Positions 57,392 to 64,000 of a DNA stretch of 64,000 nucleotides are shown here, piece by piece (the stretch's first letter is position 1; every line of letters starts with the position of its first letter). The notes beneath the pieces are model-generated. The model was not told the origin of the DNA. It made no database searches and saw nothing but the letters and a program-made list of their open reading frames with translations. The stretch lies in the NCBI RefSeq assembly GCF_034720595.1, contig NZ_JAYESJ010000001.1:436501-500500 (forward strand), read 5' to 3'. This stretch comes from Rhizobium sp. CC-YZS058 (lineage in GTDB: Bacteria; Pseudomonadota; Alphaproteobacteria; Rhizobiales; Rhizobiaceae). The position numbers were made by a program, and so were the translations under genes.

Positions 57392-58288
57392 TTATTCCGC
57401 CGGTGCGCGCTCCGCGACGGGAACGACATCCACGGCCTGGGCGGTTTCATGGCTGCCATAGCTCTTGAGCACGCCTACCACCGGCGCGACGTCGGAATAG
57501 TCGCGGCCATGGCCGACGACGATATGGTCGAGCCCGGTCGGAATGTCGTTGGTCGGGTCCAGCTCGACCCAGCCCATGGTCGCCCCACACCAGACACGCA
57601 CCCAGGCATGCATGGCGTCCGCGCCTTCCAGCCGCTCCTTGCCGGGTGGCGGCAGCGTGCGCAGGAAGCCGCTGACATAGCCGGCCGGTATGCCCAGCGC
57701 GCGCAGCGACAGGATCATCACATGGGCGAAATCCTGGCACACGCCGCTGCGCAGGCGGAAGGCCTGGCGCGGCGTCGAGTCGACCGTGGTGGCCTCCGGG
57801 TCGTAAGTGAAATCGGTGTAGATCGCATGACAGAGCGCCGTGGCAATCTGGTGCACGGTCATGCCGGGCTTGGCGATGTCGCGGGCATAGGCGCTGATCG
57901 CCGCATCTTCCGTCAGACGCGGACTGGCGCCGAGGAAATGATGCGGCGCATCGGGCGCGACCGACCAGAGCGCGGCGATTTCGGCGGGTAGCCGGTCGAG
58001 CTGTGGCGAAAGGTCGACGCCGGGATCGGCGGCCTCCAGCTGCACGCGGGCCTGCATGCGAATCGCCAGCCGATCATGCGCCTTGCGAAACAGGATGGCA
58101 GTGGCGGGATTGGCGAAGAAATCGGTGAGGTCGCTGCGCTCGTCGGGGGCCGGCGAGCAGGTCACGCTGCCGGCAATCAGCCTTTGCCGACCTGGGATAG
58201 ACAGCGGCAGCACGCGCACCAGATGCCGCCCGCCGGAGACCGGCACTTCATAGTCGTAGGTGATGGTGAGGCTGATATCGTAGAGCAT
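57392..58288 (-). CDS. Transglutaminase-like cysteine protease/peptidase (COG1305)
   Basis: 298 residues. The N-terminal bacterial transglutaminase-like beta domain (MLYDISLTITYDYEVPV) precedes a core with Cys in SGVCQDFAHVM, His in ADAMHAWVRVWC and Asp in VELDPTNDI, the papain-like triad. Such proteins are expected to cleave or transfer amide bonds. It starts one base after the ATP-grasp stop, so it is the third gene of the operon with DUF2126 and the circularly permuted ATP-grasp protein. The substrate is unknown. Confidence 0.92.
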   Translation of the reverse strand: MLYDISLTITYDYEVPVSGGRHLVRVLPLSIPGRQRLIAGSVTCSPAPDERSDLTDFFANPATAILFRKAHDRLAIRMQARVQLEAADPGVDLSPQLDRLPAEIAALWSVAPDAPHHFLGASPRLTEDAAISAYARDIAKPGMTVHQIATALCHAIYTDFTYDPEATTVDSTPRQAFRLRSGVCQDFAHVMILSLRALGIPAGYVSGFLRTLPPPGKERLEGADAMHAWVRVWCGATMGWVELDPTNDIPTGLDHIVVGHGRDYSDVAPVVGVLKSYGSHETAQAVDVVPVAERAPAE

Positions 58289-58289
58289 G

Positions 58290-60871: not shown

Positions 60872-63800
60872 TCAGAGGCCGGCCGGACGTCGCAGGTCGA
60901 GCGTCATCGGGAATTCCGCGGTTGGCGGTTCAGGAACGAGGCCGAAGCTGCCGGCCGTGTGCCCCCATGGTTCGAACCGCGCCAGGCGCCGGGCCTCGGC
61001 TTCGTTGCCGTTGACCGGGAACGTATCGTAGTTGCGGCCGCCGGGATGGGCAACATGGTAGATGCAGCCGCCGATCGAACGGCGCGACCATGTGTCGTAA
61101 ATGTCGAAAGTCAGCGGCGTATTGACCGGCAGGACCGGGTGAAGGCCGGCGGCTGGCTGCCAGGCCTTGTAGCGCACGCCGGCAACCGAAACTCCGCCCT
61201 GGCCGGTGGCGCTCAGCGGCACCGACCGGCCGTTGCAGGCCACCGTGTAGCGGTCCGGATTGGCGGCCTCGAAGCGCACCTGCAGCCGCTCGACCGAGCT
61301 GTCGACATAGCGAACCGTGCCGCCGATCGCGCCCTGCTCGCCCATGACATGCCAGGGCTCCAGGGCCTGGCGCAGTTCCAGCTTCGTGCCTTCGTACTGA
61401 ACCTCGCCGCAAAAGGGGAAGCGGAATTCGAGCTGCGCCTCGAACCATTCCGGGCGCAGGTCGAACCCATTCTGCCTGAGGTCGGCCAGCACGTCGAGGA
61501 AATCGGCCCAGACATGATGCGGCAGCATGAAGCGATCATGCAGGACCGTGCCCCAGCGCGTCAGTCCGCCTTCGGCGGGGTTCAGCCAGAAGCGGGCGAT
61601 GAGCGCGCGCACCAGGAGCTGCTGGGCAAGCGACATGCGGGCGTTCGGCGGCATTTCGAAGCCGCGGAATTCCACCAGCCCAAGCCGCCCCGTCGGCCCG
61701 TCCGGCGAAAACAGCTTGTCGATGCAGATCTCGGAGCGATGGGTATTGCCGGTGACATCGGTCAGCAGGTTGCGGAACAGCCGATCGGTCAGCCAGGGCA
61801 GAGGCGCGGACCCACGGCCCGGCGCCGGCACCTGCGCCATGGCGATCTCGAGCTCATAAAGACTGTCATGGCGCGCCTCGTCGATGCGCGGCGCCTGGCT
61901 GGTCGGGCCGATGAACATGCCCGAGAACAGGTAGGAGAGCGAGGGATGGCGCTGCCAGTGCAGGATCAGGCTTTTGAGAAGATCCGGCCGGCGCAGGAAG
62001 GGACTGTCGTTCGGGTTCTGCCCGCCGACCACCACATGATTGCCGCCCCCGGTGCCGGTATGGCGGCCATCGATCATGAACTTGTCGGCACCGAGCCGTG
62101 ACTGGCGCGCCTCTTCGTAGATCGCGGTGGTGATGTCGACGCAATCCTGCCAGGTGGCGGCCGGATGCACGTTGACCTCGATGACGCCCGGATCCGGCGC
62201 GACGCGCATCACATTGATGCGCTCGTCCTGCGGCGGCGCATAGCCCTCGATATGAACCGCGACGCCGAGTGCGGCGGCCGCGGATTCAGCGGCGGCAATT
62301 AGATCGAGATAGTCCTCGATCCGCTCCACCGGCGGCATGAACACGCAGAGCCGTCCATTCTGCGGCTCCACCGTCATGGCGGTGCGCACGGAGCCGCTGA
62401 TTTCGCCCAGCACCTGTTCATTGCGCATCTGCTGCGGCTCGGCCGCGCGGAACGAGGCTTCCGCCATGGCGCGGGCGGGGTTGGCATCATAGTGCGGCAG
62501 CGGATCGCGGGGGATGGTCGGATCGGCCTCGTGGATATAGGGGAAGCGCGACGGCGGAATATAGGGCAGGGCGCCGAGCGGAATGCGGTAGCCGACGGGG
62601 GAATCTCCGGGCACGAGGAAGATCTTGCCACGCCGCGTGCGCCAGCGCTCGCTCATCCATTTGCGCCCGGAGGATCTGCTGTTCCAGGCCTGGACAGGCA
62701 GGACGAAGCCGGTCGGCACCGTCAGTCCCCGGTCGAAGACGCGCGCAAGCCGCGTTCGCTCCTCCGGGTCCTTGAGCTTGGAATTGGAGGGATCGACATT
62801 GTCCGGCAGGCTCGCTTCCTTGATGATCCACTCGGCCGGATCCTCATAGGCCGGGAGTACGAGATCGGGCTCGATTTCCAGCGCGGCGGCGATGCCCTTC
62901 AATAGCGCTTCGGCTTTTTCAGGGGTCGCGTCGTCGCTCGCCGTCTCCCGGGCAATCAGGTCCGGATCGGACCAGATCGGCACGCCGTCCTTTCGCCAGT
63001 AGAGCGAGAAGGTCCAGCGCGGCAGGCTCTCGCCCGGATACCATTTGCCCTGGCCATAATGCAGGAAGCCGCCGGGGGCGAAGCGATCGCGCAGGCGGCG
63101 GATCAGCATGTCGGCGCGGGCCCGCTTGGTCGGGCCGACGGCATCCGTGTTCCATTCGCCGGATTCGAAGTCGTCGATCGAGACGAAGGTCGGCTCGCCG
63201 CCCATGGTCAGCCGCACGTCGTTGCGTGTCAGAACCTCGTCCACCTCGGCGCCCAGCCGGTTCAGCGCCTCCCAGCTTTCGTCCGAAAAGGGCTTGGTGA
63301 TGCGCGGATGTTCGGCAACGCGGGTGACCGTCATCTCGAAGGCGAAGTCGGTCTTCGTCTCCGGATCGCCGGAGAAGCCGCCCGAGATCGGCGCGGCATT
63401 GCGATAGTGCGGGGTTGCCGAAAGGGGAATATGGCTTTCGCCCGTCAGCAGGCCCGAGGTCGGGTCCAGGCCAACCCAGCCGGCCCCCGGAATATAGACC
63501 TCGCACCAGGCATGGAGATCGGTGAAATCCACCTCCGTGCCGGAGGGGCCGTCGAGTGCCTTGAGATCGGGCGCGAGCTGGATCAGATAGCCGGAGACGA
63601 AGCGGGCGGCGAGGCCCAGATGGCGCAGGATCTGCACCAGCAGCCAGGAGGAATCGCGGCAGGAGCCGAGCGCCTTGGTCAGCGTTTCCTCGGGCGTCTG
63701 CACGCCGGGCTCCATGCGGATGACATAGTTGACCGCCTGCTGGAGCTTGAGATTGATCGCGACGACGAAATCGACCGTATTGACCGGATCGCGCGGAATG

Positions 63801-64000
63801 GTGTCGAGATAGGCCTGCAGCGCCGGCCCTGCCGGCTCCGGCGTGCGGTAGATGGAGAGATCCTCACGGATCTCCTCCGCATAGTCGAAGGGCCAGGTTT
63901 CCGCACTTTCCTCGACGAAAAAGTCGAAGGGATTGTAGACAGTCATATCGGCGACGAGATCGACCTCGATCTTCAGTTCGCGCACCGGATCGGGAAAGAC
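60872..64000 (-). CDS. Transglutaminase-like/DUF2126 putative amidoligase, 5' end outside the window
   Basis: At least 1043 codons, open to the window end, so the N-terminus (probably 60-80 residues of bacterial transglutaminase N-domain) is missing. The transglutaminase core shows Cys in GSCRDSSWLLVQIL, His in FTDLHAWCEVYIPG and Asp in GLDPTSG. The large DUF2126 C-terminal part contains GRHTGTGGGNH and SDPDLIARE-type acidic motifs expected for a COOH-NH2 ligase. The GTG at 63985 is internal, since the upstream codons (VFPDP) continue the family sequence. First gene of the operon. Confidence 0.92.
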   Translation of the reverse strand, partial: VFPDPVRELKIEVDLVADMTVYNPFDFFVEESAETWPFDYAEEIREDLSIYRTPEPAGPALQAYLDTIPRDPVNTVDFVVAINLKLQQAVNYVIRMEPGVQTPEETLTKALGSCRDSSWLLVQILRHLGLAARFVSGYLIQLAPDLKALDGPSGTEVDFTDLHAWCEVYIPGAGWVGLDPTSGLLTGESHIPLSATPHYRNAAPISGGFSGDPETKTDFAFEMTVTRVAEHPRITKPFSDESWEALNRLGAEVDEVLTRNDVRLTMGGEPTFVSIDDFESGEWNTDAVGPTKRARADMLIRRLRDRFAPGGFLHYGQGKWYPGESLPRWTFSLYWRKDGVPIWSDPDLIARETASDDATPEKAEALLKGIAAALEIEPDLVLPAYEDPAEWIIKEASLPDNVDPSNSKLKDPEERTRLARVFDRGLTVPTGFVLPVQAWNSRSSGRKWMSERWRTRRGKIFLVPGDSPVGYRIPLGALPYIPPSRFPYIHEADPTIPRDPLPHYDANPARAMAEASFRAAEPQQMRNEQVLGEISGSVRTAMTVEPQNGRLCVFMPPVERIEDYLDLIAAAESAAAALGVAVHIEGYAPPQDERINVMRVAPDPGVIEVNVHPAATWQDCVDITTAIYEEARQSRLGADKFMIDGRHTGTGGGNHVVVGGQNPNDSPFLRRPDLLKSLILHWQRHPSLSYLFSGMFIGPTSQAPRIDEARHDSLYELEIAMAQVPAPGRGSAPLPWLTDRLFRNLLTDVTGNTHRSEICIDKLFSPDGPTGRLGLVEFRGFEMPPNARMSLAQQLLVRALIARFWLNPAEGGLTRWGTVLHDRFMLPHHVWADFLDVLADLRQNGFDLRPEWFEAQLEFRFPFCGEVQYEGTKLELRQALEPWHVMGEQGAIGGTVRYVDSSVERLQVRFEAANPDRYTVACNGRSVPLSATGQGGVSVAGVRYKAWQPAAGLHPVLPVNTPLTFDIYDTWSRRSIGGCIYHVAHPGGRNYDTFPVNGNEAEARRLARFEPWGHTAGSFGLVPEPPTAEFPMTLDLRRPAGL

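Follow-up and report, generated by a model that had tools for sequence, protein, structure and literature searches.

A Rhizobium operon of putative amidoligase and transglutaminase genes with a probably non-catalytic ATP-grasp–Alpha-E protein

Near the end of the 64,000 nucleotides of Rhizobium sp. CC-YZS058 analysed here (contig NZ_JAYESJ010000001.1, positions 436,501 to 500,500 of the forward strand; hereafter the window) lie three minus-strand genes, encoding a DUF2126 putative amidoligase that also carries a transglutaminase core, a circularly permuted ATP-grasp fused to Alpha-E, and a second transglutaminase. An earlier note, made from the window's letters, had described these genes in this order, and reading frames and Pfam confirm it: the within-window frame of the first gene matches Transglut_core (E 7.6e-17) and DUF2126 (1330 bits), the fused protein matches CP_ATPgrasp_2 (E 1.5e-136) and Alpha-E (PF04168; E 3.1e-60), and the last protein matches Bact_transglu_N and Transglut_core (E 5.9e-20). 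The DUF2126 fusion has the domains attributed to it, but the protein is longer than the window allows: its ATG start codon (L002:7699) falls outside the window, the part beyond the window end holds a Bact_transglu_N domain, and protein database entry P0001, of 1108 aa, begins at the same methionine and is 100% identical over the stretch compared. Likewise, ATP-grasp and Alpha-E do form one protein, but the fusion is not peculiar to this genome, as 79 of 80 named relatives have a fused gene after DUF2126 (the exception, L082, is without it). Coordinates are collected in Table 1.

The fused protein differs from what its family name would imply. Its ATP-grasp half folds, in a structure model, like glutathione and glutathionylspermidine synthetases, Cp1B, YgiC and YjfC, and retains many polar residues, many arginines among them. 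At the place of the Mg-ATP motif, E-x-N has become A-x-R; both E-x-N residues are present in 0/98 fused proteins as compared to 18/18 stand-alone relatives. Measured against the stand-alone paralogue described below, E168 is replaced by A, N170 by R and K376 by G. The Gly-rich loop with its lysine is lost in fused ATP-grasps (K376 is kept in 7/98), and D327, D328 and K329 are each kept in 0/98. Because the Mg-ATP motif residues are lost, the fused ATP-grasp half is probably dead as an enzyme, and the protein is probably a non-catalytic partner or helper subunit. Of the two supposed ligases of the earlier note, this one has lost its ligase residues. Over 15 distant loci, mean identity to the proteins of this genome is 0.36 for the fused ATP-grasp and 0.51 for the intact one.

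In the other domains the conserved residues are intact. The structure model of DUF2126 shows a glutamine-synthetase fold, and E335, E674, N676, H721, R821, E823, R838, E843 and R845 are found in 101/101 aligned sequences; E335, E674, H721, R838, E843 and R845 may correspond to named glutamine-synthetase residues. The first and last aligned residues of DUF2126 and glutamine synthetase run in the same order, a comparison of alignment end points only. DUF2126 is thereby a candidate ATP-dependent amidoligase of glutamine-synthetase fold. The two separate Cys/His/Asp triads reported in the earlier note hold up fully, C180/H229/D245 of the DUF2126 protein in 101/101 sequences and C184/H227/D244 of the 298-aa transglutaminase in 98/98. 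By sequence, the nearest solved chains to the transglutaminases are TgpA (6g49) and 3isr. Loss of catalytic residues in alignment, which the same note had named as refuting, is therefore seen for the fused ATP-grasp, and DUF2126 and both triads keep their residues.

A search of the genome for Alpha-E gave two matches, one in the window operon and one at C1:1027309-1030592, where a 482-aa ATP-grasp, a 313-aa Alpha-E and a 282-aa transglutaminase are encoded in a row (set B). This set lies ~530 kb from the window operon, its ATP-grasp is stand-alone with an intact motif, and two EamA-family transporter genes adjoin it on the other strand. Anbu, the proteasome-like peptidase of the predicted system, was sought in the 99.97%-complete assembly with a Proteasome-family search and an Anbu-specific profile, and neither found it. 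Because the searches for Anbu came up empty and the intact ATP-grasp belongs to a set at another locus, the window operon looks like only part of the machinery.

Relatives bear on how the two sets are related. Among 80 loci of relatives (the best 80 of 594, hence close kin), DUF2126, the fused gene and the transglutaminase gene follow one another on one strand in 78; L037 ends at a contig end. In 20 distant loci, fetched mostly for closeness of matches, the fused gene shares the locus with DUF2126 in 18, and DUF2126, the fused gene and a stand-alone ATP-grasp stand in one cluster in 15; L136-L138 have the fused gene and no stand-alone ATP-grasp nearby. Because 15 of these 20 loci carry both in one cluster, the sets tend to go together; in the window genome they are apart. 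Loci L091-L119 and L147-L152 stand outside this analysis. In a sample of 199 Pseudomonadota genomes, this one included, DUF2126 was found in 60 and Alpha-E in 115, and all 60 DUF2126 genomes have Alpha-E. At least two Alpha-E matches occur in 56/60 genomes with DUF2126 as compared to 7/139 without it (Fisher 1.5e-36, uncorrected for kinship).

The peptidases are less constant. The earlier note had seen no Anbu gene near the operon, and this remains true past position 64000, where the next gene upstream is ilvD/edd-like, as well as genome-wide by profile; the only Proteasome-family match looks like HslV and has an HslU-like AAA gene nearby (naming by eye). The Anbu profile was built from five Anbu-like proteins grouped by BLAST, of which two of the three scanned match the Proteasome family; it finds Anbu in 12 of 27 genomes searched, two of them from the same family as ours. 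Run on 25 of the 60 DUF2126 genomes, it found none in 13, and because 12 of these are genomes other than our own, Anbu looks optional in DUF2126 genomes. The general Proteasome model misses part of the Anbu genes: in G036, G064, G002, G057, G185, G149, G035, G028, G143 and G095 the profile finds Anbu and the Proteasome model gives no match or one of HslV strength (the Anbu matches in G185 and G028 each hold one in-frame TGA). With Proteasome matches placed in 21 of the 60 DUF2126 genomes, at least 16, a floor, have one beside the genes, and should these all be Anbu, the gene is present in at least 26 of the 60. Two genomes of the same family, G170 and G172, have two Alpha-E matches, no DUF2126 and no Anbu match, which is possibly a partial loss of the window set.

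A second candidate hydrolase, Peptidase_Mx, is encoded with its zinc ribbon in the window genome at L140:6373-7473 (C1:2725372-2726472), unlinked to the operon and with its HEIGH motif intact. Among the fetched loci, 8 have a zinc-ribbon Peptidase_Mx gene next to the cluster, five of them having been chosen for that closeness. In the Pseudomonadota sample it was found in 34 genomes (broken or partial in two, G174 and G185), of which 33 have Alpha-E (Fisher 4.5e-8) and 24 have DUF2126 (8.7e-8), again uncorrected for kinship. Excerpts of PMC3650047 give the DUF2248 (PF10005) family as predicted zincin-like metalloproteases.

Upstream of the operon, 35 of 39 Rhizobiaceae-type regions share the motif cCTTGC.tTcT.tc.ctGCATTGCACA, and 26 of these 35 have it 62-68 bases 5' of the ATG. 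In the genome the long motif is matched once exactly and six times inexactly, as compared to four matches in the reversed control, and its 11-base core has a single genomic occurrence, the one at the operon. The motif contains TGC-N3-GCA, which we take to be a PhaR site; regulation by PhaR was set aside in this form, given the single core in this genome and the match count of the reversed control. Both sets are preceded by an excess of sigma-54-like sites in distant lineages, as judged against shuffles that preserve base composition only. This enrichment fits the nitrogen control that has been reported (PMC5491218, PMC5666114), and COG3484 is among the families linked to sigma-54 in the available part of PMC12316311.

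Table 1. Features of the operon and its surroundings (window coordinates).
Feature	Position	Strand	Remarks
Conserved 26-base motif before operon	window-equivalent 64247-64272, just outside (L002 7748-7773)	-	Rhizobiaceae-type regions
DUF2126 fusion protein	60872..64000, continuing to 64198 outside window	-	Bact_transglu_N + transglutaminase core + predicted amidoligase, 1108 aa
Within-window frame of DUF2126 gene	60872-64000	-	1042 aa, open at window end
Transglutaminase core of DUF2126 protein	63461..63781	-	triad C180, H229, D245 (1108-aa numbering)
DUF2126 amidoligase domain (predicted)	60890..63358	-	Pfam; glutamine-synthetase fold in model
Gap between DUF2126 gene and fused gene	60714..60871	-	158 bp
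Fused degenerate circularly permuted ATP-grasp + Alpha-E protein	58290..60713	-	807 aa
ATP-grasp-fold half, residues 32-503	59205..60620	-	glutathione/glutathionylspermidine-synthetase fold; predicted inactive
A187-D188-R189 at place of paralogue's E-D-N Mg-ATP motif	60147..60155	-	alignment
Alpha-E domain, residues 526-806	58296..59138	-	E-R motifs E542-R543 and E675-R676 kept
Second transglutaminase-family protein	57392..58288	-	298 aa

Together, these observations suggest, tentatively and with a little less than an even chance of being right, that the operon supplies half of an amide-bond cycle made of two parts, in which a dead ligase serves as partner and set B cooperates. DUF2126 would spend ATP on activating a carboxylate for amide formation with an amine. 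Amides of this kind would in turn be the targets of two cysteine amidases or transamidases, the transglutaminase-fold domain of the DUF2126 protein and the stand-alone transglutaminase. The fused protein would turn over no ATP and, with fold and arginines kept, would serve as a substrate-binding or assembly subunit, working with the intact ATP-grasp, Alpha-E and transglutaminase of set B, with Anbu and Peptidase_Mx as additional hydrolases of variable occurrence. As substrate, a Glu/Gln-type carboxylate carried by a peptide or protein is probable, which may be used under limiting nitrogen, and the location is probably cytoplasmic. An extended form, in which the intact ATP-grasp set makes an intermediate that the dead ATP-grasp–Alpha-E protein captures and passes to DUF2126, and which the transglutaminase fold, Anbu and zinc Peptidase_Mx remove, is unlikely in our estimate; if true, this would be a nitrogen-controlled reversible conjugation system with a paralogous dead ligase as conserved adaptor.

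Several observations weigh against the amide-bond cycle as proposed. Decay of the fused ATP-grasp is uneven, with some distant fused copies keeping K376 (those 7/98) or K475 (13/18 distant), and in the same 15 loci the transglutaminase (0.35) and the Alpha-E versions (0.28/0.30) drift as fast with their motifs kept, so that sequence drift is no clean sign of lost function. Residue 613 of the DUF2126 protein (window 62360-62362) is Q, as against R in all 100 other aligned sequences, and transglutaminase-fold triads do not reveal the direction of the reaction. L123 and L134 have DUF2126 and the stand-alone genes and no fused gene in the locus, and 4 of the 60 DUF2126 genomes have a single Alpha-E match; because of these four and the 2/20 distant loci without the fused gene, the fused partner is not strictly required. 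A sigma-54-like site is absent before the window operon (score 5/10), where the Rhizobiaceae motif stands in its place, and set B reaches only 7. Pull-downs in Yersinia gave no specific interaction among Anbu-operon proteins, as far as the excerpt of PMC6376114 goes.

Two other accounts would keep the chemistry and change the product. In one, the ligases tag proteins with a peptide or amino acid, and trimming or degradation of the tagged proteins falls to Anbu, Peptidase_Mx or the transglutaminases. Such a role was predicted for the Anbu operon from gene neighbourhoods (PMC5666114, PMC6376114), a pair of ATP-grasp ligase and peptidase, RimK/RimB, can modify a ribosomal protein (PMC12239564), and Anbu adjoins DUF2126 or Alpha-E in several lineages; however, the operon is present here with no Anbu found, as in the profile-negative genomes (13/25 with our own), and excerpts of PMC6376114 describe Yersinia and two other Anbu proteins as inactive on the peptide substrates tested, which leaves tagging rather unlikely in our judgement. 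In the other, the product is a small peptide, an amine conjugate or some other metabolite that is secreted or stored, and the transglutaminases are amidases that mature it. Glutathione and glutathionylspermidine synthetases make small amides, and the ATP-grasp half folds like such enzymes; Cp1B, YgiC, YjfC and homoglutathione synthetase do so too, according to the excerpted PMC12568646. The two EamA-family genes beside set B and the glycogen genes beside the Rhizobiaceae copy also fit a small metabolite. The neighbour clusters scanned and found in at least 3 of 20 loci comprise Anbu-like, ComEC, Peptidase_Mx and signalling proteins, but no recurring transporter family, a weak test in which part of the clusters was scanned and frames below 60 aa, the size expected of precursor peptides, were unlisted; we consider this account unlikely.

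That the fused ATP-grasp is still an enzyme, with other chemistry or other residues, appears improbable. Its fold and many of its polar residues are kept, and some pseudo-enzymes elsewhere have proved active, but E-x-N, the Gly-rich loop lysine and D327-D328-K329 are lost together. A role in glycogen metabolism, suggested by the position beside glgBCAP, is hardly credible: glgP, often with glgC, follows in most Rhizobium-like loci (glgB was not used in these counts), but another gene separates the two groups in five relatives inspected, and the 10-kb flank holds no glg match in Mesorhizobium, Devosia and Rhodobacterales-type loci.

In the window itself, 204 bp separate the transglutaminase gene from glgP. 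The gene found at this place in L009, L021, L022, L043 and L071, TadG-like by eye, is missing here; considered as a fourth operon gene, it was rejected, and it does not look like Anbu. At the other end, a terminator-like hairpin with a T run follows the ilvD/edd-like gene (L002 ~7777-7800, minus strand; by eye), and because of it the operon may have its own promoter. The closest named relative of both the DUF2126 protein (94%) and the fused protein (96%) is Rhizobium sp. YIM 134829. Glutamine at residue 613 of DUF2126 is also found in database proteins P0002 and P0003, and DUF2126 proteins from several sources bear the database name 'IMP dehydrogenase', which their domains do not support.

The families are widespread, as the counts of DUF2126 (60/199) and Alpha-E (115/199) indicate, yet no product is named in the literature found. 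Our searches, in the part of the listings that was followed, returned no report of the function or product of these genes and none pairing DUF2126 with a transglutaminase, and COG and DUF names gave incidental mentions only. The analysis guides the experimenter on which proteins to assay and warns that single mutants may be masked, because the fused ATP-grasp is probably dead, a second set with an intact ATP-grasp is encoded at another locus and Anbu looks optional.

The genes belong to the known Alpha-E, transglutaminase and amidoligase system: Alpha-E, a triad-bearing transglutaminase and the circularly permuted ATP-grasp family are all present, and a competent ATP-grasp, judged by its residues, is absent from the operon. 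We take the Pfam text for PF14403 (CP_ATPgrasp_2) to name inactive versions often fused to Alpha-E; the window protein is one such form, and its lost residues are here listed and counted against a stand-alone paralogue. We also presume that Rv2566-Rv2569c and Rv2409c-Rv2411c of Mycobacterium are the same two sets in one genome; of these loci the literature searched gave only a listing of two locus names. The link to the ligation and cleavage system of Iyer, Aravind and colleagues, drawn in the earlier note, is right as to kinship (Iyer et al., 2009, as cited in PMC5666114 and PMC6376114), with the amendments that one ligase is degenerate and the operon partial, and the idea of peptide ligation and cleavage is plausible. 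The Anbu operon has the same Alpha-E, circularly permuted ATP-grasp and transglutaminase families, and set B has the three in a row; by contrast, no Anbu was found in the window genome, and the window copy is a fusion with a degenerate ATP-grasp and comes with DUF2126. Escherichia coli glutathionylspermidine synthetase/amidase (2io8) may offer an analogy in working principle with other folds: the DUF2126 protein would combine a glutamine-synthetase-fold ligase with a transglutaminase-fold amidase, without a PDB sequence match to 2io8, and an active ATP-grasp with a CHAP amidase was not found in one protein, as Pfam gives no CHAP and the ATP motif is lost. RimK/RimB and RloA/RloB/RloC, in the excerpt of PMC12239564, likewise unite an ATP-grasp ligase with a peptidase, and rlo also includes a transglutaminase-fold protein; they differ in having other ATP-grasp proteins, a retropepsin-like peptidase and a membrane-bound, inactive transglutaminase, and the vesicle paper (PMC12096838) likewise concerns a different transglutaminase, membrane-bound and inactive. 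The kind of system is thus known, and what is added or quantified here, within the literature searched, is that one subunit is probably dead, that the two sets tend to pair, that Anbu looks optional and that Peptidase_Mx is linked to these genes.

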